The notes under the pieces are model-generated. The model made no database searches. It was not told where the DNA came from and worked only from the letters and a program-made list of their open reading frames with translations. A DNA stretch of 36,637 nucleotides. Source: Candidatus Cloacimonadota bacterium. GTDB lineage: Bacteria; Hydrothermota; E44-bin80. A program made the translations under genes and the position numbers. Below are positions 235 to 12,836 of this stretch, piece after piece (the stretch's first letter is position 1; each line of letters begins with the position of its first letter). The stretch lies in NCBI GenBank assembly GCA_004375965.1, contig SOIS01000054.1, positions 1 through 36,637 of the forward strand, in the 5' to 3' direction.

Positions 235-1128
235 CTATTTAAAATATTCCTCTATCGTTTTCCATATCTTCTTTGTTTCCTTTGTTGCACAATTTTCTGA
301 ATATTCTACAGCAGGTATTCCATTAACAATTGATTCTGTAATCTCTGGCTCAAAAGGAATTTTGCCAATAACAGGAATACCTTCTCTTCTACACCAATCT
401 TCTATCTTTACTGAATTTTCATAGTTTATATCATACTTGTTTATTACACAGGCAGACTTTACGCCAAAGTGTCTTGCAACGCTATTTACCCTTTTTAGAT
501 CATGTATCCCCGAAAGGGTCGGTTCTGTTACAACCAGTGCAAGATCCACACCTGAAATTGCAGCAATAACGGGACAGCCAATACCTGGCGGACCATCAAT
601 GATTACGAAATCTTTCTTCTTTTCCTCTGCAACTCGCTTCGCCATTTCTCTTGTTAGGGAGACAAGTTTTCCGGAATTCTCTTCTGCAATTCCCAGCCTG
701 GCATGAACCATTGGCCCGTACTTCGTTTCAGAAATATACCATTCGCCTGATATAGTCTCTTCCATACTTATTGCCTCTAAAGGACAAACATAGGAACATA
801 CTGAACAGCCCTCACAGGAGATAGGGTCAATAACAAAAAAAGAAGATGTATTACCCTGATTATCATTTTTTATTTCTTTAATCGCATCAAACCTGCAAAC
901 CTTTATGCATTCACCGCATCCTGAACATAGTTCATTATTTATAACTGCTTTTTTGCCACCCGTGAATAGGTGGGTTTCTTTTATCTCAGGATGGAGAAGC
1001 AGATGGAGGTCTGCCGCATCCACATCGCAGTCGCAGAGCACTTTATTCTCTGCAAGTGCTGCGAACGAGGCAGTAACAATTGTTTTTCCTGTCCCACCTT
1101 TACCACTTATAACGACAATCTGTTTCAT
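235..1128 (-). CDS. MinD-superfamily ATPase with inserted ferredoxin domain (ORP-cluster type), 297 aa
   Basis: A cytoplasmic P-loop ATPase of the MinD/NBP35 class. The N-terminus carries the deviant Walker A motif GKGGTGKT (about residues 9-16). Around residues 60-120 a two-cluster ferredoxin module is inserted, with CxxCxxCxxxC motifs (CSGCGECIKVC and CEGCSVCSYVC). The switch region IIDGPPGIGCPV then follows. Proteins with this layout occur as tandem pairs in anaerobes and are members of the orange-protein (ORP) complex, where they are thought to handle metal or Fe-S cargo. A paralogue lies 62 nt upstream. The start is set by an aaggag site 6 nt before the ATG. It is the last well-supported gene of the minus-strand cluster. 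Family assignment is firm; the substrate is unknown. Confidence 0.92.
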   Translation of the reverse strand: MKQIVVISGKGGTGKTIVTASFAALAENKVLCDCDVDAADLHLLLHPEIKETHLFTGGKKAVINNELCSGCGECIKVCRFDAIKEIKNDNQGNTSSFFVIDPISCEGCSVCSYVCPLEAISMEETISGEWYISETKYGPMVHARLGIAEENSGKLVSLTREMAKRVAEEKKKDFVIIDGPPGIGCPVIAAISGVDLALVVTEPTLSGIHDLKRVNSVARHFGVKSACVINKYDINYENSVKIEDWCRREGIPVIGKIPFEPEITESIVNGIPAVEYSENCATKETKKIWKTIEEYFK

Positions 1129-1190
1129 TCATCTCCTTCCTTAAACCACAAAGAATTCTATTTTATTATCTCTTCCAATCCCTGTCAATG

Positions 1191-2135
1191 TTATTTTCTG
1201 TGTTTTTCTTTTCCTTTGTCAAAAGAAATTAGATACTCCCATATCCTTTTGAATATATTCCTGTATTTATTACCTTCCTTCAACATAGGTATACCGTATG
1301 AATAAAGCACCGCAATTTCTCTTTCATAGGGAATCTCAGCTATCAAAGGAATTTTTTCTTCTTTACAGAATTCCTGCACTTTCATATCACCCGTCCCTGC
1401 ACAATTTACTACAACGCCAAAAGGTATCATCAGTTTTTTTAAGGTTTCAACAGCAAGTTTCAAATCATGTAAGCCAAACGGTGTCGGTTCTGTTACAAGT
1501 ATTGTAAAATCACTTCCCTGCACAGCTTTAATTACAGGACAGGATGTACCCGGAGGAACATCTATAATTGTAATTACATTTTTATCATTCTCTTTTATAA
1601 CATCTTCCTTAGCAGCAGAAGAAACTATTGACTGATCTTTCCACCCCGTTGATGCTCTTTTAGCCTTTTCTTTTACAGATTTTATTAATGGTGCTGCCAT
1701 AGGTTCCCCAATGTTCAGTTTTCCATGAAAAAATTCTATTCTGCCACAGAGGCCTTCTTCAATAAGACCTATCTCCCTCTCTTTCTCAATAATTGCATTA
1801 TTAGGGCATAGAAGGCTGCATCCACCACATCCATGGCAGAGTTCAGGAAAAACAAGAACATTCTCCTTAACAACAATAATAGCATTGTATGCACATACCT
1901 CCCCACACTTTCCACAATAATTACATTTAGTAAAATCCACCTCAGGAATAGGAATACCAAACGAGGTACTCTTTACAATTTGAGGTTTCAGGAAAATATG
2001 CGCATTTGGTTCCTCCACATCACAATCAAGAAAATATATTTTCCCTTCTTGAGCTTCTTCAAGGTACAATGCAAGACTTGTTGCTACAGTAGTTTTGCCA
2101 GTACCTCCTTTACCACTTGCAATAGAAACAATCAT
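1191..2135 (-). CDS. Second MinD-superfamily ATPase with inserted ferredoxin domain, 314 aa
   Basis: A paralogue of the downstream ATPase. It has Walker A GKGGTGKT (residues 9-16), an inserted 2x[4Fe-4S] ferredoxin module (CNYCGKCGEVC and CHGCGGCSLLC, about residues 70-125) and the switch motif IIDVPPGTSCPV. It differs by a Ser/Lys-rich stretch of about 20 residues just before the switch (around residues 166-188) and by a basic C-terminal tail. The two ATPases probably work as a pair, as in ORP-type clusters. The ATG is preceded by aaagg. A 115-nt gap containing a dispersed repeat separates it from thioredoxin upstream. Confidence 0.92.
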   Translation of the reverse strand: MIVSIASGKGGTGKTTVATSLALYLEEAQEGKIYFLDCDVEEPNAHIFLKPQIVKSTSFGIPIPEVDFTKCNYCGKCGEVCAYNAIIVVKENVLVFPELCHGCGGCSLLCPNNAIIEKEREIGLIEEGLCGRIEFFHGKLNIGEPMAAPLIKSVKEKAKRASTGWKDQSIVSSAAKEDVIKENDKNVITIIDVPPGTSCPVIKAVQGSDFTILVTEPTPFGLHDLKLAVETLKKLMIPFGVVVNCAGTGDMKVQEFCKEEKIPLIAEIPYEREIAVLYSYGIPMLKEGNKYRNIFKRIWEYLISFDKGKEKHRK

Positions 2136-2234
2136 CTTTCAACCTTTTATTAGTTTCAGTAGAAAGAACAATAGGTTCAGTTTTGAAGGAAAGGGCTCAG
2201 TTTTATTACCTTTTCAACCATTTGTCATTAGGAT

Positions 2235-2250
2235 TTCGTCATTCGGATTT
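2235..2250 (-). repeat. Dispersed 16-bp word directly after the thioredoxin stop codon
   Basis: The minus-strand word aaatccgaatgacgaa starts immediately after the thioredoxin stop (2251-2253). The identical 16-mer occurs at 18144-18159, ten bases after the purD stop. Both copies have the same orientation relative to the gene they follow. Confidence 0.6.
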
Positions 2251-2565
2251 TCATATATGTGGCTTTATTTTCTCTTCTATCACACCTTTTGGTAAAGCAC
2301 CTATGATCTCTCCAACTACTTTTCCATCCTTAAATATTGTAAGGGTAGGTATACTCATTATATTGTATCTTTGTGCTACGGATGGAACCTCATCAACATT
2401 CATCTTACAGACCTTTAATTTTTCTGGATAATCGTTACCTAATTCTTCAACAATAGGCGAAACCATTTGACAGGGGCCACACCATGGTGCCCAGAAATCA
2501 ACAAGCACAGGTAATTCAGATTTCAAAACCTCTTTTTCGAATTCATCAACATTTTTAATCTCCAT
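2251..2565 (-). CDS. trxA: Thioredoxin, 104 aa
   Basis: A canonical thioredoxin: single domain of about 104 residues with the redox motif WCGPC near residue 30 (DFWAPWCGPCQMVSP), the cis-proline segment SIPTL and the usual C-terminal helix. It reduces disulfides in the cytoplasm. Placed between the NifX-type protein and the MinD-type ATPases, it probably keeps cluster-binding or zinc-binding cysteines of the operon products reduced. That role is inferred from location only. The start has a clear aaaggag site. No thioredoxin reductase gene is in the window. Confidence 0.95.
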   Translation of the reverse strand: MEIKNVDEFEKEVLKSELPVLVDFWAPWCGPCQMVSPIVEELGNDYPEKLKVCKMNVDEVPSVAQRYNIMSIPTLTIFKDGKVVGEIIGALPKGVIEEKIKPHI

Positions 2566-2616
2566 CTTTCTTCTCCTTTATTATTGATGTTCTCTTTTGT
2601 AGCCACACCTTTTCTT

Positions 2617-2635
2617 AATTCCCAATTCTCAATTC
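2617..2635 (+). repeat. 19-bp dispersed word, intergenic copy
   Basis: The 19-mer aattcccaattctcaattc lies between the NifX-type gene and thioredoxin. The identical word, on the other strand, lies inside the carboxypeptidase coding sequence at 26534-26552. Confidence 0.7.
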
Positions 2636-2672
2636 CTAATTGAGTACTGATTGTAACAATTTCTGCTCTATA

Positions 2673-2996
2673 TTATATGTTCTTTAAGTACTCTTCCACT
2701 ACCTCTTTTACTGTCATATCGGAACGAAAACCTGTAACAACCTTTATTCCAGCTGCATCAAGGGCACTCTGTGCATTTGGTCCTACAGCGTCAGTTAAAA
2801 CGACCTCAGCTCCTTTCGAAGAAATCAAACGAACAGCTTCAGGTCCAGCACCACCCATCATTCCTATTCCTGGATTGGAAACAGGTTCAAACTTCATTGT
2901 TTCTGAATCAACGATAAGAAAATATGCACAGCGACCAAATTTCCCGCTTACCTGTGCATTCATAGTACCGCTTGTTACTGAAACCGCTATCTTCAT
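2673..2996 (-). CDS. NifX/NifB-type dinitrogenase cofactor domain protein (ORP/MTH1175-like), 107 aa
   Basis: A single-domain protein of the family that includes NifX, the C-terminus of NifB, MTH1175 and the Desulfovibrio orange protein. Visible hallmarks are MKIAVSV at the start, the FGRCAYF turn near residue 20, a GGAG stretch and the GPNAQSAL segment. Family members bind Fe-S-Mo or Mo-Cu sulfide clusters non-covalently. No nitrogenase genes are present, so a role in nitrogen fixation is unlikely. With the two MinD-type ATPases nearby, an ORP-like metal-cluster carrier is the best reading. A strong gggggagagg site precedes the ATG. The gene lies 32 nt downstream of the ferredoxin gene. Confidence 0.88.
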   Translation of the reverse strand: MKIAVSVTSGTMNAQVSGKFGRCAYFLIVDSETMKFEPVSNPGIGMMGGAGPEAVRLISSKGAEVVLTDAVGPNAQSALDAAGIKVVTGFRSDMTVKEVVEEYLKNI

Positions 2997-3027
2997 CCTC
3001 TCCCCCTTTAGTCATTGAGCTACTAAG

Positions 3028-3303
3028 TCATGAAAGAAAAAAAGTCATATGATTAACCCTTTTTGAAAGTAAATCCACCTTTCTCTTAATATTTCCCATA
3101 TCCTTTCTCAGTCTATCAATATCCAAAACAAAAACCCCAGTTATTATAGCATTTCTGGGGCAAAAGTCAATGCACAAACCACAGTCAGTGCATTTTGAAT
3201 CGTCTATCTGTGCCTTTCCGGATGATAAATCAAAGGCACCCTCTGGGCACATCCTAATACAAAGTCCGCAACCTATACAGAGTTCCTCCCTGACGTAAAA
3301 CAT
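3028..3303 (-). CDS. 2x[4Fe-4S] ferredoxin, about 91 aa
   Basis: A small bacterial-type ferredoxin with two CxxCxxCxxxCP motifs (CIGCGLCIRMCP and CTDCGLCIDFCP). A C-terminal extension of about 35 mostly charged residues may form a helix. I place the start at the ATG at 3303, two bases after the FmdB-type stop (3306-3308), instead of the longer frame from 3327, because this makes a coupled start and removes an odd leader. It probably supplies electrons to the metal-cluster proteins of the cluster. Confidence 0.88.
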   Translation of the reverse strand: MFYVREELCIGCGLCIRMCPEGAFDLSSGKAQIDDSKCTDCGLCIDFCPRNAIITGVFVLDIDRLRKDMGNIKRKVDLLSKRVNHMTFFLS

Positions 3304-3305
3304 AA

Positions 3306-3557
3306 CTATCTCTTGTCTCTCCCACATGTTCCCGTTTCAGAACAGGGTGGTGTATCGCATCTCTCATTTCTTCCACAGCAGGTAGTTCCTTTCGTATTGG
3401 AACTTCCCATTCGTATGGATGCGGGAAAAGACAGTAATTTTACAAGTTTTTGAGAACCGCAGTTTGGGCAGGCTAATGCTTCCTGTGATCCTGGACTTCG
3501 TATGAAAAACTCTGTTACTTTACCGCATTTATCACACTTAAAATCATAAATAGGCAT
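3306..3557 (-). CDS. FmdB-family zinc-ribbon protein, 83 aa
   Basis: The N-terminus MPIYDFKCDKCG with a second CPNCGS pair forms the FmdB/CxxC_CxxC_SSSS-type zinc ribbon (residues 1-45). This is followed by a Cys-rich tail (TTCCGRNERC, PPCSETGTCG) that could bind further metal. FmdB proteins were named as putative regulators, but their function is not established. The stop lies 2 nt from the ferredoxin start, so the two are probably co-translated. A site aaaggag precedes the ATG. Confidence 0.85.
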   Translation of the reverse strand: MPIYDFKCDKCGKVTEFFIRSPGSQEALACPNCGSQKLVKLLSFPASIRMGSSNTKGTTCCGRNERCDTPPCSETGTCGRDKR

Positions 3558-3652
3558 CTTTACTCCTTTTTATTCTCCAGACCATAGTAAGCACCTGTTA
3601 AACATTAGACCAAAAACACACGACTTAAAATATTTGATTTTAGTCTATGATA

Positions 3653-3871
3653 TCATTCCCTTACCATTTTGGTAGCGCATTGAGGACAGGTAACTTGATA
3701 ACAGGGGACACCTAGTTGATGTGTGACCTTCGTTCCACAGGATGGGCATATGCAGTTCCCACCTACACCCATCCCCTTTCCACCCATACGTCCCCTTCCT
3801 CCTCCTCTTCCCATCCCTCTTCCTGTTCCTGGACCTGCGCCTTGCGGTCCTGTTCCATCGCCTCTTGGCAT
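3653..3871 (-). CDS. DUF5320-type Gly/Arg-rich zinc-ribbon protein, 72 aa
   Basis: It begins with MPRGDGTGPQGAGP, the signature start of the DUF5320 family. A Gly/Arg/Met-rich middle (residues 15-37) and a C-terminal zinc ribbon (CPSCGT ... CPQCAT) follow. I chose the ATG at 3871 because of this signature and the ccaggagg site before it; a frame from 3896 would hide it. DUF5320 proteins commonly accompany ORP/NifX and MinD-type ATPase genes in anaerobes, and their role is unknown. The gene is separated from Mrp upstream by about 160 nt containing a REP-like hairpin. Confidence 0.82.
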   Translation of the reverse strand: MPRGDGTGPQGAGPGTGRGMGRGGGRGRMGGKGMGVGGNCICPSCGTKVTHQLGVPCYQVTCPQCATKMVRE

Positions 3872-3970
3872 AATAACCTCCTGGTAAAATGCTCATTTAA
3901 ATTATTCATCATACCTTGACCAACATTTTTTTAAAATTGATACTTCCCTGACTGCTTTTAATAACCTTAC

Positions 3971-4010
3971 GCAGGCTAAACCTTCGGTTTTACTCAGGTC
4001 AAGAGCCTGC
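3971..4010. repeat. REP-like nested hairpin (gcaggct...agcctgc)
   Basis: The outer inverted repeat gcaggct (3971-3977) pairs with agcctgc (4004-4010). An inner stem aaacc/ggttt (3978-3990) is nested inside. It lies between Mrp and the downstream DUF5320 gene. The 'cgcaggct...agcctgcgg' pattern is a widely seen intergenic repeat type in bacteria. It may lower read-through within the cluster. Confidence 0.6.
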
Positions 4011-4032
4011 GGCTACCGATTTGACTTTTTCT

Positions 4033-4845
4033 CTAACTCTGTTTAGAAGAGTTTATTATCTTTTCAACTACTCTCATAAATGCTTTTGAAGCTTCTGATT
4101 CAGGATTTTCGAGGATAAAGGCTTTGCCACTATCACTTGATTGCACAATCTCTGGGTCTATTGGAATCCTTCCAAGAAACGGAACACCCATTTCCTTAGC
4201 AATCTTCTCTCCTCCGCCTTCCTTAAAGAGTTCAATCTTTTTTCCACAATGAGGGCAGATAAGCCCACTCATATTCTCTATTATTCCAACAACATTCAGG
4301 TTCAGCTTCCTTGCAAAGGTAACAGCCTTTCTTGAATCAAGAATGGAAACATCCTGTGGTGTTGTAACGATTATCGCACCTGTTGCAGGTATAAGCTGTG
4401 CAACAGAAAGAGGCTCATCACCTGTTCCTGGCGGAGAATCGATGATAAGCCAGTCAAGTTTGCCCCAATCTACATCACCGAGGAACTGTTGTATAACCTT
4501 CATCTTCAAGGGACCTCTCCATATTACAGGTAGATCCGGACTTTCTAATAGAAAAGCCATTGAAACAAGCCTCAGGTTCTTTGTAATCGGAACAGGCTGT
4601 ATCTTTTTCGCACTCGCAGCAACCATTCTCTTCCCTTCCACACCCAGCATTTTCGCAAGATTAGGTCCATGAATATCTACATCTAAAAGACCAACCTGTT
4701 TTCCTTTTTCTGATAGGGCAAGTCCAAGGTTAGTAGCAACGGTGCTTTTCCCAACTCCTCCCTTTCCACTAAAAACAAGAACTCTCTGCTTTATTTTCGA
4801 CAATGTTTCCTCTATATTCTTCTCTTGTTCTTCCTTCATACTCAT
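4033..4845 (-). CDS. mrp: Mrp/NBP35-family Fe-S carrier ATPase, 270 aa
   Basis: A cytoplasmic P-loop ATPase of the Mrp/ApbC/NBP35 family. It has Walker [10 protein letters not shown] (about residues 27-35), [10 protein letters not shown], the switch motif [13 protein letters not shown] and the conserved C-terminal CxxC (CPHCGKK) that holds a bridging [4Fe-4S] cluster between two subunits. Length matches the family. It overlaps the upstream NifX-fusion gene by an ATGA, so the two are translationally coupled. In some anaerobes an Mrp ATPase and a NifX-type domain occur as one polypeptide, which supports a physical partnership. Likely role: loading or moving an Fe-S or mixed-metal cluster onto the NifX-type proteins. 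Confidence 0.93.
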
Positions 4846-5474
4846 CCTTTCTTTTCGAGTTCTTTAATCCTTTTGTTAATTTCATCGATCTGATGTTTTA
4901 GTAATTCTGCTTGCTGCTTCATAAGTTCAAGTTCCTGTTTTTTATCCACTCCTTGAGGAGTCACTCCAGGCGGTTCTATTCCTGGCGGAATTGCTCCTGG
5001 ATACCCTGTTCCATAACCCATTCCTGCAGACATTCCTCTTCCCATACCCCTTCCCATACCTGCACCCATGCCTCTGCCCATTCCCCCACCCATGCCTCTA
5101 CCCATACCAAAGCCTGTACCAAAATGTGCACCAACATCCGGTGCCTGGGTAGGCTGGAATTGACCAGACTTAAATCTTGAAATAGCCTCCTTTACTGTCC
5201 CTACCATACCTGTAATGACCTTCACTCCTGCTGCACTGAGCGTTTGAAAAGCATTGGGTCCGCAACTTCCTGTAAGCACAAACTCTGCACCTTTGTTTGC
5301 AACAAGTTGAGCTGACTGTATTCCTGCACCTCCCATCGCCTGGACATTAGGGTTCTCAATAGCTTCAAACTTCTCTGTATCAGGGTCAATAATGATGAAA
5401 TAGGGGCATCTACCGAATCGAGGGTCTATCTGTGAAGTCAAATCCGTTCCTGAAGAAGTAATTGCAATTTTCAT
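4842..5474 (-). CDS. NifX-type cofactor domain fused to a Gly/Met-rich linker and coiled coil, 210 aa
   Basis: Three parts are visible. Residues 1-105 are a NifX/ORP-type domain ([31 protein letters not shown]). Residues 118-158 are a Gly/Met/Arg repeat of the GMGRGMG type. Residues 175-210 are a charged heptad-like helix ([19 protein letters not shown]). The last part strongly resembles the C-terminus of the upstream neighbour, so the two may form a hetero-coiled coil. Methionine-rich repeats can bind Cu(I), and the related orange protein carries a Mo-Cu cluster; a metal role here is inference. The gene overlaps both neighbours by ATGA (5471-5474 and 4842-4845), so the three are tightly coupled. 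Confidence 0.82.
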
Positions 5475-5836
5475 TTTTTTGTCTCCTCCAATTCTTTAAT
5501 CCTCATTTTTATTCCATCGAGTTCATCCTCTATCATTTCTGCTTGTCCTTTCAACATTTCCAGTTCTTTCTCTGGTGTTAAGGGTGCAGCTCCCCATGGG
5601 TCATAAGGTGTTGGAAAACCTTTCATAGGGAAACCTTGTACCTGCGTTGCGGGAACCTGTCCCTGCTGCCAGTAATAATCCATCTGAGGTGTGGGCCAGG
5701 TACCGTGTAAGAGATACTGAGCTGCAGGTCCTAATCCTGTAGGACTTCTTCCAACCCATCCAGGGCTATACCCAAATCTCATCCAGCCTGGTAAGCCTGT
5801 TAGATAGTACATATTTCTGTGTCCATATCCTCCCAT
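5471..5836 (-). CDS. DUF5320-like Trp/Tyr-rich protein with C-terminal coiled coil, 121 aa
   Basis: Starting at the ATG at 5836 gives MGGYGHRNMYYL. A perfect aaggagg lies 6 nt before it, so the longer frame from 5854 (which would translate the Shine-Dalgarno itself) is unlikely. The first 80 residues are rich in Gly, Pro, Trp and Tyr. The last 35 form a charged helix (EKELEMLKGQAEMIEDELDGI) like the tail of the following gene product. The family is DUF5320-like, function unknown. It ends in an ATGA overlap with the NifX-fusion gene. Confidence 0.7.
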   Translation of the reverse strand: MGGYGHRNMYYLTGLPGWMRFGYSPGWVGRSPTGLGPAAQYLLHGTWPTPQMDYYWQQGQVPATQVQGFPMKGFPTPYDPWGAAPLTPEKELEMLKGQAEMIEDELDGIKMRIKELEETKK

Positions 5837-5850
5837 TTTTTCCTCCTTTA

Positions 5851-5866
5851 GCATAATAAATTATGC
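5851..5866. promoter_or_regulatory. Inverted repeat just upstream of a ribosome-binding site
   Basis: gcataat and attatgc face each other across 2 bp, 1-2 nt upstream of the aaggagg that serves the gene at 5836. The loop is too short for a stable RNA hairpin, so a protein-binding site or a role in opening the ribosome site is more likely than termination. Confidence 0.35.
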
Positions 5867-5908
5867 TTGATTACATTGATTTCTATAAGATTACACAGAT
5901 TATAAAAT

Positions 5909-5929
5909 GAAATCTCTTTTTGAGATTTC
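5909..5929 (-). terminator. Hairpin after the first gene of the cluster (attenuator candidate)
   Basis: An 8-bp stem, gaaatctc/gagatttc, has a 5-nt loop. It lies about 10 nt past the stop of the first DUF5320 gene. On the minus strand it is followed by a T-rich but interrupted tract (attttataatc). It could trim transcription after the first gene so that this gene is made in excess. The flanking T-tract on the plus strand is stronger, so direction is not certain. Confidence 0.45.
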
Positions 5930-5938
5930 CTTTTTTCA

Positions 5939-6262
5939 CTAGTAGCGGAATCTTCTTCCTCTACCGCCACCTCTTCCTCCAAAGAATCCCATCCCATAAT
6001 ATGGTCTCATCGGCATAGGGTTTTGATATGGATACGGTGTAGGATAATATCCACCATACTGATACTGTCCACCATAGGGATACTGTCCTGGTCGCATATA
6101 ATCGTAAGGGTAACCTCCAAAACCTCCCCCTCGACCCAATCCAAGACCCATCCGAGGTACAGGATTGGCAAATCCAGGTGTTGAATAACCTGCACAGTAT
6201 CCAGCTGCCCTACCTGTCATAGATCCAAGACCTCTTGGTCCTGTTCCATCTCCTCCTGGCAT
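5939..6262 (-). CDS. DUF5320 Gly/Tyr/Pro-rich protein, first gene of the sigma-54 cluster, 107 aa
   Basis: It starts with the family signature MPGGDGTGPRG. A single Cys sits near residue 23 (AAGYCAGY). The rest is a Gly/Tyr/Pro-rich low-complexity stretch ending in an Arg-rich tail (GGRGGGRGRRFRY). No signal peptide or membrane segment is visible. It is the first gene behind the -24/-12 promoter and has a very strong aaaaggagg site 7-8 nt before the ATG, so it is probably made in quantity. A hairpin follows it. The function of the family is unknown; the low-complexity body suggests a scaffold or a condensate-forming partner, which is speculation. Confidence 0.78.
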   Translation of the reverse strand: MPGGDGTGPRGLGSMTGRAAGYCAGYSTPGFANPVPRMGLGLGRGGGFGGYPYDYMRPGQYPYGGQYQYGGYYPTPYPYQNPMPMRPYYGMGFFGGRGGGRGRRFRY

Positions 6263-6296
6263 TTAACTCACCTCCTTTTATCTACTATTAAATATA

Positions 6297-6312
6297 TGCA
6301 ATTTCTGTGCCA
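6297..6312 (-). promoter_or_regulatory. Sigma-54 (-24/-12) promoter of the DUF5320-NifX-Mrp-MinD cluster
   Basis: The minus strand reads TGGCAC-AGAAA-TTGCA, an exact match to the sigma-54 consensus with the required 5-bp spacer between the TGGCAC and TTGCA blocks. The predicted start is near 6286, giving a leader of about 24 nt to the ATG at 6262. The divergent gene encodes a sigma-54 activator with an intact GAFTGA loop. Confidence 0.9.
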
Positions 6313-6381
6313 GAATCCTATTTTAACTAAGTACCAAAAATTATAAACTTATCTATTTCACAAGTTAGGAAATTAACGAAA

Positions 6382-6421
6382 TTTGTTTCAATTATGAAAA
6401 TTTGTTTCAAGATGAAACAAA
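6382..6421. promoter_or_regulatory. Tandem enhancer-like sites for the sigma-54 activator
   Basis: A perfect 9-bp inverted repeat, TTTGTTTCA-aga-TGAAACAAA, occupies 6401-6421. A second, imperfect site starts with the identical TTTGTTTCA at 6382, exactly 19 bp away, or about two helical turns. The centre of the perfect site is about 100 bp upstream of the -24 box, the usual distance for an activator enhancer. It also lies 17 bp left of the -35 box of the activator gene, so autoregulation is possible. Confidence 0.72.
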
Positions 6422-6437
6422 CATATAAAAAGAAGTA

Positions 6438-6466
6438 TTGACAAAAGGAGGTATTTCAGTTATATT
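6438..6466 (+). promoter_or_regulatory. Sigma-70-type promoter of the activator gene
   Basis: TTGACA (6438-6443), a 17-bp spacer and TATATT (6461-6466) face the activator. The predicted start is near 6473. A 7-bp inverted repeat (gttgaat/attcaac, 6474-6493) sits at the start site and could be an operator or a 5' hairpin. Confidence 0.72.
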
Positions 6467-6558
6467 ATTATATGTTGAATCTTCAAATTCAACAGAGATA
6501 ATTTTTCAACTTGAAGTAACTACAAATGAAAGAATATGAAAAGGGAAATCAACTCTAT

Positions 6559-6582
6559 CCCCCCCTTTGAAAAAGGGGGGAC
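6559..6582. repeat. C-run/G-run hairpin repeat in the activator leader
   Basis: A stem ccccccttt/aaaagggggg with a tiny loop lies about 30 nt before the activator ATG. A related copy is at 28791-28809. This 'cccccttt..aaaggggg' motif is a common dispersed repeat in bacteria. In the leader it may influence translation. Confidence 0.6.
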
Positions 6583-6610
6583 AGGAGGGATTTATTAAAA
6601 GGATAAAGAT

Positions 6611-8314
6611 ATGATAACACAGGAAGCATATGAGGATTTCCTGGAGAAATTTTCTGATGGTGTAATAGCAATTGATAAAAATCTGAGGATTATTAGCTTT
6701 TCAAGGGGAGCGGAAAGGATAACCGGGCATAGGGCTAATGAGGTTACAGGACTTACCTGTAAGGAAGTTTTCAAGTCAACCATCTGTGAGAAGAGCTGTA
6801 TTGTTAAAATTGTATCGAAAACAGGTAAACCTGTATCAAACATTCGAGAAGATATAAAAAACGTCAACAATGAAACAATTCCTGTTTCTATAAATGCGTC
6901 ACCACTACTAAATATTCATGGAGAAGTAATTGGCGTTGTCATGAGTTTCAGAAATGTTCTTGAGGTCTACAAACTCACTGCTGATCTTTTCAAAGAATCT
7001 GTAAGGCTCCAATCTATTCTGAACTCTATTGCAGACGGTGTATTTACAGTAGACACCAATTGGCTTATAACAAGCTTCAACCCTTCTGCTGAAAAAATTA
7101 CAGGATATAAGAAAAAAGATGTTATTGGAAAACCCTGCAGTACTGTATTCGGAAGTGAAGTTTGCAGTAAGGATTGTCCACTCAGGAAAACTATTGAAAC
7201 AGGAAATACTATCACAAATTTTGAAATGGGTATTATCAATGAAAAGGGTGAAAAGATTCCTGTAAGCGTGAGTACAGCCTTACTGATAGACGAAAAAAAC
7301 GAGATTATTGGTGGCGTAGAAACATTCAGAGATCTCACAGTTTTGAAACAACTAACAAATGAGTTAAAAGGAAGATATAGTTTTGGTAACATTGTCGGGA
7401 AAAATCCCAGAATGCAGGAGTTATATAATTTGATTGAGACGGTTAGCAACACAAATTCAACAGTTCTTTTACTTGGTGAAACAGGAACAGGAAAGGATTT
7501 AGTCGCAAGAGCAATCCATTACAATTCACCAAGAAGGGATAAACCCTTTATTAAGGTTTCCTGTGCAGCATTACCTGAGTCACTACTTGAAAGTGAACTA
7601 TTCGGTCATAAAAAAGGCGCATTTACCGGTGCAATAAGGGATAAACCAGGAAGGTTTAAATTAGCAGACACTGGCACAATCTTCCTTGATGAGGTAGGTG
7701 AAATTCCTGTTTCAGTTCAGGTTAAACTATTGAGGGTGCTCGAGGAACAGGAGTTTGAACCCCTTGGCGATACAAAACCAACGAAAGTTGATGTGAGAAT
7801 TATTTCAGCAACCAACAGAGACTTAAAAGAGGCAATGAAGGAAGGAAAATTCAGAGAGGATCTCTTTTACCGATTGAATGTAGTTCCCATTTATATCCCC
7901 CCTTTAAGGGAAAGAAAGGACGATATACCACTTTTCGTTGAGCATTTTATCCAAAAATTCAACAAAGAGACAGGTAGGAATATCCTTTCTGTCTCAAGAA
8001 AGGCTATGGAAATACTGCTTGATAATACGTGGACTGGGAATGTAAGGCAGCTTGAGAATGTTATTGAGCATGCATTTGTTCACTGTGATGGGAAAACCAT
8101 CCAGGTTCAACATCTACCGGAAGAAATCAGGTCAAAGAAAGTGGAGGATAGATTTCTGGATACAGATAGACCTTTTGAAGAAATAGAAAGACTGGTCATA
8201 GTAAATGCATTGAAGAAAAACAATCACGATAGAGAGAAGACTGCCCATGTTCTCCATATTTCCAGAACCACGTTGTGGAGAAAGATGAAAAAATATGGGA
8301 TCAAGAAAATTTAA
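6611..8314 (+). CDS. Sigma-54-dependent activator with two Cys-motif PAS domains, 567 aa
   Basis: The layout is PAS (about 5-118), PAS (about 130-245), AAA+ (about 258-485) and a C-terminal Fis-type helix-turn-helix (EKTAHVLHISRTTLWRKM). The AAA+ part is complete: Walker A GETGTGKD (289-296), the sigma-54-contacting GAFTGA, Walker B IFLDEVGEIP and the FREDLFYRL arginine-finger region. Each PAS domain carries the same C-x8-C-x3-C pattern (C50/C59/C63 and C176/C185/C189), suggesting a redox or Fe-S signal. There is no receiver domain, so control is probably by direct sensing. It sits divergent to the metal-cluster operon and its -24/-12 promoter and is almost certainly its activator. Its stop overlaps that of the convergent gene by 4 bp. 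Confidence 0.95.
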   Translation: MITQEAYEDFLEKFSDGVIAIDKNLRIISFSRGAERITGHRANEVTGLTCKEVFKSTICEKSCIVKIVSKTGKPVSNIREDIKNVNNETIPVSINASPLLNIHGEVIGVVMSFRNVLEVYKLTADLFKESVRLQSILNSIADGVFTVDTNWLITSFNPSAEKITGYKKKDVIGKPCSTVFGSEVCSKDCPLRKTIETGNTITNFEMGIINEKGEKIPVSVSTALLIDEKNEIIGGVETFRDLTVLKQLTNELKGRYSFGNIVGKNPRMQELYNLIETVSNTNSTVLLLGETGTGKDLVARAIHYNSPRRDKPFIKVSCAALPESLLESELFGHKKGAFTGAIRDKPGRFKLADTGTIFLDEVGEIPVSVQVKLLRVLEEQEFEPLGDTKPTKVDVRIISATNRDLKEAMKEGKFREDLFYRLNVVPIYIPPLRERKDDIPLFVEHFIQKFNKETGRNILSVSRKAMEILLDNTWTGNVRQLENVIEHAFVHCDGKTIQVQHLPEEIRSKKVEDRFLDTDRPFEEIERLVIVNALKKNNHDREKTAHVLHISRTTLWRKMKKYGIKKI

Positions 8315-9996: not shown

Positions 9997-11553
9997 TTAT
10001 TTTTTATGAGGAGAAAGTATAGCAACGGGCAATATAATTTCCTCAAGTGATATTCCGCCATGTTGGAATGTGCCTTTATACCTCTTTTCATATTGATGAA
10101 TATGTGTGGGATAGACAAAGAAATAATTCTCTTTAGCAATTGCATATTTCTTATGAACATTTTCCGAAGGTAATTTATATTTTAGTGGTTCTTTTATGAA
10201 AAGCGCATCTTTCATATTACACCGGATGGTAGTTCCATGTTTATACCTGAGATTTACAGAAACATCTTTCCCTGCCTCTATTGGTGTTCCGTTTTCAACC
10301 ATTATAGAGCCATGGTCTGATGTTATAACAATAGTAATATCATAACCCACCATTATTCTCATTGCTTCAAATAAAAATGACTTTAAGAACCATGCTACAG
10401 TTAGTGCTCTTAAGCCATCATAATCGTACATCATTTCCTTAAGCACATCTAACTCGGACCTCGTATGGAGTAATATATCTATAAAATTTACAACGATAAC
10501 AGCAAATGGAATTTTGTACCAGCTTTTAGTTATCGAAGGTAATCGAGCTGATTCGCTTAAATTGAGTATTTTAAAGAATTGAGGTGGTCGTGCAAGTCTA
10601 ATTCCTTCCCTTTTTAGAAGTTCTATTAAAAGCTCCTTTTCATATCGGTTCTGACTGCCTTCACTCCATTGTCCCCAATATTCAGGATAAAACCGTGCCA
10701 TATCAGAAGGAAATAATCCACTGAAAATGGCATTCCTTGAGTACGGTGTAGCAGTGGGAAGTATAGAAAAATAGTGATGGTTTTCAATCCTATAATAACT
10801 TTGGATAAGTTTCTCAAGAGCATTCCACTGGTCAAGTCTCATACAGTCAAGAAGGATAAACACAACCTTCTTCCCCTTTTTGAGAAGTGGAAAGACATAT
10901 TTTTTCATTATATCAATAGAGAGAGTTGGCCTTTCATCTTCTTCATTTGATACCCATTTTATATAGTTATTTTCGATATACTTGCAAAACTGGACATTAA
11001 AGGATTTTCTTGTGTCAAGGTGTGTTTTCTTTATATTCTTATCGTTCAAATCCTGAAAGATGTTGTCCCATTTACTCAATTTCCTGTGTATCTCAATCCA
11101 TTCATTCCAGTTGATTCCAATCAATCTATCCTTGCTCAGTTCCTGCATCGCCTTCGTATATTCCTCCGCCAGTTTGACAGAAATAATGCTCTGTCTGTCA
11201 ACCACCCTTTTCACAGTCGCGAGAAGTTGTTTCGGATTTATTGGTTTTATAAGAAAATCATCCATCCGGTATCCAAAAGCCTCATCTACAAGTGCAATAT
11301 CTTCACTTTTTGTCACCATTATAACAGGAAGATAGGGTGAGTGTAATCTAATCCCCTTAAATGTTTCCATCCCATCAATACCAGGCATCTGTTCATCTAA
11401 CAAGACAAGATCAAAGTCTTCCCGCTCAATCATAGCAAGTGCGTCATGACCGCTCATAGCCTCTTTTACATCATATCCATAGTTTTCAAGAATAGTTACC
11501 TGGGAGAGAAGACTTGCTATTTCGTCATCTACCCATAAAATCTTCTTTTTCAA
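9997..11553 (-). CDS. porX: PorX-like response regulator: receiver plus PglZ-type phosphatase domain, 518 aa
   Basis: Residues 1-120 form a receiver domain (KILWVDDE; phospho-acceptor D53 in LVLLDEQMPG; K103 in FLIKP). A helical linker (about 121-215) and an alkaline-phosphatase-superfamily PglZ domain (about 216-518) follow. The PglZ metal and nucleophile motifs are visible: LLDCMRLDQW (D236), ILPTATPYSRN (265-274), ITSDHG and the late QHGG. This matches PorX of Bacteroidota, which controls type IX secretion genes and hydrolyses oligonucleotides. The start codon is TTG at 11553 with gggggaaaa before it. It lies 17 nt downstream of the kinase gene, so they form a cognate pair. Confidence in the architecture is high; the regulatory target here is inferred. 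Confidence 0.9.
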   Translation of the reverse strand: MKKKILWVDDEIASLLSQVTILENYGYDVKEAMSGHDALAMIEREDFDLVLLDEQMPGIDGMETFKGIRLHSPYLPVIMVTKSEDIALVDEAFGYRMDDFLIKPINPKQLLATVKRVVDRQSIISVKLAEEYTKAMQELSKDRLIGINWNEWIEIHRKLSKWDNIFQDLNDKNIKKTHLDTRKSFNVQFCKYIENNYIKWVSNEEDERPTLSIDIMKKYVFPLLKKGKKVVFILLDCMRLDQWNALEKLIQSYYRIENHHYFSILPTATPYSRNAIFSGLFPSDMARFYPEYWGQWSEGSQNRYEKELLIELLKREGIRLARPPQFFKILNLSESARLPSITKSWYKIPFAVIVVNFIDILLHTRSELDVLKEMMYDYDGLRALTVAWFLKSFLFEAMRIMVGYDITIVITSDHGSIMVENGTPIEAGKDVSVNLRYKHGTTIRCNMKDALFIKEPLKYKLPSENVHKKYAIAKENYFFVYPTHIHQYEKRYKGTFQHGGISLEEIILPVAILSPHKK

Positions 11554-11570
11554 TTTTCCCCCATCTGTTG

Positions 11571-12836
11571 TTAAGTTTTCTTATTCTTTCTATTTATAGC
11601 AGGAAGGTAAATAAGAAAGGTAGAACCACTCCCAAATTGTGTGCTCTCAAGCAGAATCCTCCCATTGTGATACTCCTCAACAATCCTTTTCGTAATTGCT
11701 AAACCAAGACCCCAGCCAAATTTTTTGGAGGTGTATCCTGCTTCAAATATCCTTCTTACTTCATCCTTCGGGATTCCTCTTCCATTATCCTTCAACCTTA
11801 TTTCAACATATTTTGCACTGGAAGAATCTCTGGTACTTATCTCAATCAAACCCTTCTTCTTGTCCATTGCATCAATTGCATTTTTAACAAGGTTTTCAAT
11901 AACCCAGGAGAGTAAATCGAAATCAAAAAGAACCCTTTTTCGAGCATCATAATTCTCTTTTATTACAATTCTGTTATCAATTGTTGGTAATTTTCTTTTT
12001 AGATAGTCTACAGAATCCTTAACTACACTGTTTACATCCCCTTCTTTCAATTTTGGTAGCTGACCGATGCTGCTAAACCTGTTCGTCACCTTATGTAATC
12101 GTGCCACATCCTTTTCCAACCCCTCTATTATCTCCTTTGGATTATCTTTTTTTAATATTTCAGTCCATCCCATAAGTGAACTGAGTGGTGTTCCAAGCTG
12201 ATGTGCAGTCTCCTTTGCAAGACCGACCCATATGTGTTCCTCATCACTCCTTCTTGCTATACTGAATCCAAGGAAACCAACTATAATAAATACTATTATT
12301 ACTCCCGATATGATGACAGGAAACCACTCCAGCTGCTTTACAAGAGAAGTTTCACCATAATGAACAGTTCCAAGTTTTATCTTACCTCCATAAAGCATAG
12401 GAATAGGTTCATTTTCTTTATCGAGTCTTCTTGTTATTTCAATCAATCTTTTCACAGGACCTTCTGGAGGATTCTGTGGGTCAACATTCTCAAGCATCTC
12501 GTTTGACACAGATAACAAGTCTATATCAACATTTCGCCAGGCTCTCGGGATACCTCTTTCATCTGTGATAACAACCGGAAAATCAATGTTTTTGATAACC
12601 TCCCTGAATATTATTTCCATTTCTGGGTTGGGTTCTGGGGCAACCCCATATGCAGTTGTTTCGGTTTTCAAGAACTCTGCGAAGATCTTTGAAGTGATTT
12701 TTGTTGAATCCCTTACCTCTCTTACGAGAGTTTGAAAATAAAGAAATATACCGAGGATGATTGCTATGAATCCTAAGAAAAGGTAGCCTACGAGTGTTCC
12801 CGGTAGATGTAAGCTTCTTCTCCGTATATTAAACAT
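11571..12836 (-). CDS. PorY-like membrane histidine kinase, 421 aa
   Basis: A first membrane helix (about residues 14-36) and a second one (about 190-210) enclose an extracytoplasmic domain of about 150 residues. No HAMP motif is obvious. The kinase core has the H-box AHQLGTPLSSL (about 225-235), N-box NLVKNAIDAM, and glycine boxes LKDNGRGIP and GWGLGLAI. The HQLGTPLSSL form of the H-box is the type found with PorX partners. It is followed after 17 nt by the PorX-like regulator. The ligand of the periplasmic domain is unknown. The 97-nt gap to the exporter upstream holds no convincing gene. Confidence 0.9.
   Translation of the reverse strand: MFNIRRRSLHLPGTLVGYLFLGFIAIILGIFLYFQTLVREVRDSTKITSKIFAEFLKTETTAYGVAPEPNPEMEIIFREVIKNIDFPVVITDERGIPRAWRNVDIDLLSVSNEMLENVDPQNPPEGPVKRLIEITRRLDKENEPIPMLYGGKIKLGTVHYGETSLVKQLEWFPVIISGVIIVFIIVGFLGFSIARRSDEEHIWVGLAKETAHQLGTPLSSLMGWTEILKKDNPKEIIEGLEKDVARLHKVTNRFSSIGQLPKLKEGDVNSVVKDSVDYLKRKLPTIDNRIVIKENYDARKRVLFDFDLLSWVIENLVKNAIDAMDKKKGLIEISTRDSSSAKYVEIRLKDNGRGIPKDEVRRIFEAGYTSKKFGWGLGLAITKRIVEEYHNGRILLESTQFGSGSTFLIYLPAINRKNKKT

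Follow-up and report, generated by a model that had tools for sequence, protein, structure and literature searches.

An orange-protein-like gene cluster with DUF5320 proteins in a Candidatus Cloacimonadota bacterium, and its possible role in holding iron-sulfide

A 36,637-nucleotide stretch of DNA from a Candidatus Cloacimonadota bacterium (contig SOIS01000054.1 of assembly GCA_004375965.1; hereafter the window) carries genes for two MinD-type ATPases with ferredoxin inserts, two NifX-type proteins, an Mrp carrier and several proteins related to the family DUF5320 (PF17253), all transcribed divergently from a sigma-54 activator. Similar sets are known as orange-protein (ORP) systems, and the ORP of Desulfovibrio binds molybdenum and copper (Mo–Cu). 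Does the cluster serve the same metal, and what is the part of DUF5320 in it? The explanation we favour, at close to even confidence, is a complex of the ORP type, specialised in holding iron-sulfide and passing it on; DUF5320 is probably tied to iron–sulfur (Fe–S) storage and delivery. Among 5.39 million open-access papers searched, just two mention DUF5320, and neither is listed for what the family does.

ORP-like core and its DUF5320 partners

The window is contig C7 of a 2.29 Mb incomplete draft genome (the source genome), and its genes were called here from six frames. Eleven genes form a minus-strand operon running from 6262 down to 235, in the order DUF5320-A, DUF5320-B, NifX-coil, Mrp, head-ribbon, FmdB, ferredoxin, NifX, thioredoxin, MinD1 and MinD2, and the PAS/sigma-54 activator (6611-8314) is divergent from it (Table 1). 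The original prediction, made from the sequence alone, had placed the MinD pair, thioredoxin, two NifX-type proteins, ferredoxin, FmdB, Mrp and activator at positions that Pfam and TIGR profiles confirmed. Its view of the core as ORP-like also held: the paired ferredoxin-MinD ATPases, NifX proteins of the ORP clade, Mrp and a divergent sigma-54 activator are all present.

The nearest known system is the ORP complex of D. vulgaris (Orp3, Orp4, Orp5, Orp8 and MrpORP; DVU2103-2109; PMC6345978, PMC3897727), in which Orp3, Orp4 and Orp8 co-purify and receive Fe–S clusters from MrpORP in vitro (PMC6345978), and the regulation of which involves IHF and DVU2106 (PMC3897727). Both systems possess two ferredoxin-MinD ATPases, an ORP-clade NifX protein, an Mrp carrier, a divergent sigma-54 activator, a -24/-12 promoter and palindromic upstream sites. 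However, the window has one structural operon instead of two divergent ones, its Mrp is not fused to a NifX (Di-Nase) domain, one of its NifX proteins bears a Gly-rich tail and a coil, and DUF5320, FmdB, thioredoxin and ferredoxin are added. The activator motif is GAFTGA, whereas GAFTDA is listed for DVU2106 (PMC4641369). The window Mrp scores 383 bits against the MrpORP model, under its cut-off of 450, since the NifX domain is encoded on its own.

Whether DUF5320 is linked to this system in relatives had been set beforehand as a test able to refute the partnership, and the genome search found the linkage conserved. Among 147 genomes of the phylum, 69 encode DUF5320 and 93 NifX, with 68 of the 69 DUF5320 genomes also encoding NifX (Fisher p = 2e-19, uncorrected for shared ancestry), and at least 98 of 114 DUF5320 matches have a NifX gene, among the NifX matches listed, no more than 5 kb away. 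Twenty same-phylum loci, picked for examination since their matches suggested the layout, hold most of the operon genes. Scanning independently with the profile of MinD2 yielded 80 loci outside the phylum set, in Aminicenantes, Omnitrophota, Chloroflexota, Clostridia, deltaproteobacteria, Planctomycetes, Armatimonadetes and archaea. Labelled by profiles built here from window relatives, as at all compared loci, these encode a second MinD-ferredoxin protein (74), NifX (69), DUF5320 (49), Mrp (43), FmdB (27), the sigma-54 activator (8) and thioredoxin (5). The counts point to a common core of the ATPase pair, NifX and DUF5320, with Mrp frequent and the activator and thioredoxin occasional. The gene set is thus not unique to this genome, and the extra parts (DUF5320, FmdB, thioredoxin and ferredoxin), earlier held to be new here, recur in many anaerobic bacteria and archaea.

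Natural fusions were also identified: NifX-coil in 17 loci, NifX-ribbon in L066 and L097, NifX-coil-ferredoxin in L116 and L125, and NifX-coil-NifX in L117. Linkage and fusions together reject DUF5320 as a chance neighbour and sustain the prediction that it is a true partner of the system.

DUF5320 modules and NifX-type proteins

Alignment divides DUF5320 into three modules: a head (consensus MPGGDGTGPxGLGPMTGRAAGYCAGY), a middle (TGLPGWMRFGYSPGW) and a C-terminal coil (EQELxxLKxQAExLExEL). All three also make up a full-length member on contig C21 of the source genome, adjoining two NifX genes and Fur; the window differs in that they are spread over four proteins, as head and tail (DUF5320-A), middle and coil (DUF5320-B), coil on a NifX protein (NifX-coil), and head and six-Cys ribbon (head-ribbon), the ribbon pattern being conserved in the alignment. 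Three DUF5320-type proteins had been predicted. Only DUF5320-A stands above the Pfam gathering score of 27 bits, with DUF5320-B and head-ribbon below it, and the DUF5320 C-terminus of NifX-coil (43-44 bits, above the cut-off) had been overlooked. The full-length gene on contig C21 belongs to a second, Fur-linked cluster (L011, 34-3527), which comprises two NifX genes, a head-ribbon gene and a MinD1-like open reading frame of only 178 amino acids that stops just past the switch-II motif and is perhaps broken or a sequence error.

The AlphaFold2 model of NifX-coil consists of a NifX domain (confidence ~98), a low-confidence linker (residues ~113-175) and a terminal helix (178-209, ~91). Its nearest solved fold is apo-ORP (2wfb, root-mean-square deviation 0.8 Å), and in our tree both window NifX proteins fall into one clade with this D. 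gigas ORP (support 96/96). The best sequence match of the NifX domain is MTH1175, followed by ORP; the tree, built without P. furiosus IssA, leaves the position of MTH1175 outside the ORP-containing clade unresolved. MTH1175 has been placed in the IssA clade (PMC5524996). Identity with nitrogenase factors was rejected, as Pantoea NifX, NifY and the NifB C-terminus fall apart on long branches (99/99). Elsewhere in the source genome, at locus L012 (contig C25, 1235-3401), a NifX-type protein with an HFGRC...CDH pattern is encoded close to a radical-SAM-like gene, and the radical-SAM profile that matches there also matches 28 of the 80 outside loci.

A second likeness is to IssA of Pyrococcus furiosus and the IssX clade (PMC5524996), in which a NifX-type domain is likewise followed by a Gly-rich, basic tail predicted to be disordered, in an iron-sulfide context. 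The IssA tail has an isoelectric point (pI) of 10.7, with 15 of 70 residues Gly, 14 of 70 aromatic and 7 of 70 cationic (PMC5524996). Both the NifX-coil linker (pI 10.0, 40% Gly over residues 113-175) and the DUF5320-A tail (pI 10.0, 29% Gly, 25% aromatic, 12% K/R) fit this description in charge and Gly, and the latter also in aromatics. NifX-coil differs from IssA in its extra C-terminal coil and in sharing its operon with genes for ATPases, Mrp and distinct DUF5320 proteins. IssA stores thioferrate, and the likeness of the window proteins to it is one of gene content and tail composition. In pyrite-grown Methanococcus voltae two IssA homologues rise and a thioferrate-like electron paramagnetic resonance signal appears (PMC8516115).

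Promoter, regulator and neighbouring genes

The predicted -24/-12 promoter between operon and activator is indeed there, as a perfect match, and a looser version of the pattern lies within 500 bases upstream of the first operon gene in 12 of 22 loci, the window included. The palindrome GTTTCA-N-TGAAAC is found upstream in the window and in L043, L044, L052 and L053. A thioredoxin gene also adjoins the cluster in L043 and L044, of the same family, and in L056.

Table 1 Features of the ORP-like cluster in the window
Feature	Position	Strand	Evidence
MinD2: Orp3/Orp4-like ATPase of the MinD type, deviant Walker A, with a two-cluster ferredoxin insert	235..1128	-	Pfam ParA/CbiA and Fer4
MinD1: second ferredoxin-insert MinD-type ATPase	1191..2135	-	Pfam
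Thioredoxin (WCGPC)	2251..2565	-	Pfam, 109 bits
NifX: NifX-type protein without tail	2673..2996	-	PF02579, 75 bits
2x[4Fe-4S] ferredoxin	3028..3327	-	Pfam Fer4
FmdB-type zinc ribbon	3306..3557	-	TIGR02605, 52 bits
Head-ribbon: DUF5320 head and six-Cys ribbon (CxCPxC...H...C...CPxC)	3653..3871	-	PF17253, 22 bits, first half only
Mrp/NBP35 Fe–S carrier ATPase	4033..4845	-	PF10609 (NUBPL/ParA model), 339 bits
NifX-coil: NifX domain, Gly/Met/Arg-rich linker and DUF5320-type C-terminal coil	4842..5474	-	PF02579, 92 bits; PF17253, 43 bits
DUF5320-B: DUF5320 middle (TGLPGWMRFGYSPGW) and coil	5471..5854	-	PF17253, 23 bits, C-terminal half only; kept in relatives
DUF5320-A: DUF5320 head and aromatic/Gly/Arg tail	5939..6262	-	PF17253, 49 bits (cut-off 27); head near-invariant
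Sigma-54 -24/-12 promoter, TGGCACAGAAATTGCA, perfect	6297..6312	-	sole match in window, 0.02 expected by chance
Candidate activator site, palindrome TTTGTTTCAAGATGAAACAAA	6401..6421	.	sole match with up to 3 mismatches, 0.04 expected
PAS-PAS-sigma-54 AAA+ activator (GAFTGA, Fis-type helix-turn-helix)	6611..8314	+	Pfam Sigma54_activat, 245 bits; PAS; HTH_8

Several further genes accompany the cluster elsewhere. A metallo-beta-lactamase-fold protein is encoded in most same-phylum clusters (e.g., L045 3829-4587, L047 6071-6775, L049 12205-12912) and in 30 of the 80 outside loci, and is absent from the window cluster. In L055 (5776-10441) a nickel-insertion gene (LarC-like, PF01969) and others separate the two MinD genes, and a putative heavy-metal exporter (ArsP_2) lies within the clusters of L046 (457-1467), L047 (3536-4567) and L053 (3214-4245). 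Outside the operon, the window encodes a response regulator with a PglZ domain adjoining a histidine kinase (9997-12836), a pair that resembles PorX/PorY of type IX secretion.

Metal, function and competing explanations

The original prediction was of a system for building or storing a metal–sulfur cluster, with the Mo–Cu sulfide cluster of the Desulfovibrio complex as the known case. Mo–Cu as the metal became doubtful: the evidence on molybdenum is mixed, and both neighbourhood and composition lean towards iron-sulfide, without proof. Of the 80 outside loci (1.14 Mb in total), 18 include a Fur gene and 29 a NifU-type scaffold, where fewer than one of each would be expected by chance, given 52 Fur and 56 NifU matches in ~84.7 Mb from 34 of the genomes that carry these loci. 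In a same-family genome of a sister genus (G013, locus L043), the genes for Fur, FeoB and the activator follow one another directly, the activator starting 5 bases past FeoB.

In the mechanism that we propose, the NifX domain of NifX-coil would bind iron and sulfide, and the Gly/Arg-rich tail of the protein would retain the anionic product, much as IssA holds thioferrate. The DUF5320 proteins may contribute more tails rich in Gly, aromatic residues and Arg and attach to the NifX protein via the common C-terminal coil, so that a particle or scaffold of mixed subunits forms. The pair of ferredoxin-insert MinD proteins would link the binding of ATP to the movement of electrons or clusters into or out of the particle, Mrp would take finished [4Fe-4S] clusters to target proteins, and the thioredoxin, ferredoxin and zinc-ribbon proteins could give reductant or hold metal. 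The PAS/sigma-54 activator would turn the operon on in response to a presumed signal. What was observed is the content and linkage of the genes, their fusions, the promoter, the folds and the composition of the proteins, from which the metal, the assembly of the particle, the direction of transfer and the signal are inferred. The bolder version, in which DUF5320 and NifX-coil together build an iron-sulfide particle of mixed subunits that the ATP-driven ferredoxin-MinD pair fills and empties, an anaerobe counterpart of ferritin in many bacterial phyla and archaea, we consider doubtful.

Several observations weigh against the iron-sulfide explanation. The window NifX proteins group with the Mo–Cu-binding ORP and not visibly with MTH1175, and DUF5320-B is not cationic overall (pI 5.7). 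The composition of the tails is generic and could suit any anion or RNA, and Fur-family members may also sense peroxide or zinc. AlphaFold2 was run on single chains and does not bear on the putative coil pairing, and IssA nanoparticles are reported to be homomeric (PMC5524996). The source genome has a strong ferritin match (161 bits), so no unmet need for storage is apparent, and replacement of ferritin by the cluster was rejected.

A true ORP system, in which the NifX proteins hold a Mo–Cu (or other Mo–metal) sulfide cluster that Mrp and the MinD pair mature, with DUF5320 accessory, has the shared core, the sigma-54 regulation, the ORP clade and the apo-ORP fold in its favour; we rate it unlikely, and the Mo–Cu reading is weaker than iron-sulfide. 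MoaC is present in two of four genomes of the family, and a fragment of it ends a contig of the source genome, which points to a pterin-cofactor pathway in the family. However, searches for a ModA/WtpA-type binding protein, and for no other importer, gave no clear match in the source genome, where the best reached 30 bits, and found none in the genomes G013 and G014, both of which bear the same cluster; since MoaC does occur in the relatives, the absence of molybdenum genes is not decisive against Mo–Cu. The neighbourhood is, moreover, iron-related, and DUF5320 was not found in the flanks of two activator-bearing loci of sulfate reducers (L134, L137). A general stress operon with DUF5320 proteins forming Gly-rich condensates that shield Fe–S proteins, and with no inorganic core, would suit the low-confidence Gly-rich linker and the frequent position of DUF5320 beside Fur-family regulators, which can be PerR-like. 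We give it a slim chance, as DUF5320 is bound to NifX genes, direct fusions included.

The ATPases raise two further readings. Both MinD proteins have an eight-Cys ferredoxin insert, and in MinD2 the eight cysteines are kept in 95 aligned relatives (one of them in 94 of 95). A switch-II cysteine is found in 95 of 95 relatives of MinD2 (Cys185) and in 89 of 91 of MinD1 (Cys199), seven residues past an Asp, a spacing as in the NifH motif DVLGDVVC, the Cys of which is a cluster ligand. NifH and BchL, with HypB, follow MinD among the nearest folds of MinD2 (predicted local distance difference test 94). The pair might thus be an ATP-gated electron donor, somewhat nitrogenase-reductase-like, that reduces the NifX centre as part of a redox enzyme or sensor and not of a store. 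Global alignment places the MinD1 cysteine on that of NifH but does not align MinD2 there, so that the equivalence is unproven; canonical MinD is the better fold match, only this one conserved cysteine exists beyond the ferredoxin set and the DCD cysteine, and no catalytic partner is encoded, which makes an electron donor quite unlikely. Positioning or cell division, with the MinD-type ATPases directing a complex to the pole, was reportedly the first proposal for the D. vulgaris orp genes. The MinD fold, a predicted C-terminal helix in MinD2 (280-296) and the polar MrpORP of D. vulgaris (PMC6345978) are in line with it, but the window proteins score 70 bits against a cut-off of 212.9 for the curated bacterial MinD model, and the eight-Cys insert and Fe–S neighbours would be left unexplained; this we regard as the least probable explanation.

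The storage of iron and sulfide and the supply of Fe–S clusters in strict anaerobes are little known. Linkage and natural fusions place DUF5320 in a definable module, and what was a vague 'NifX-like' neighbourhood becomes a multi-protein system of bacteria and archaea that can be tested.

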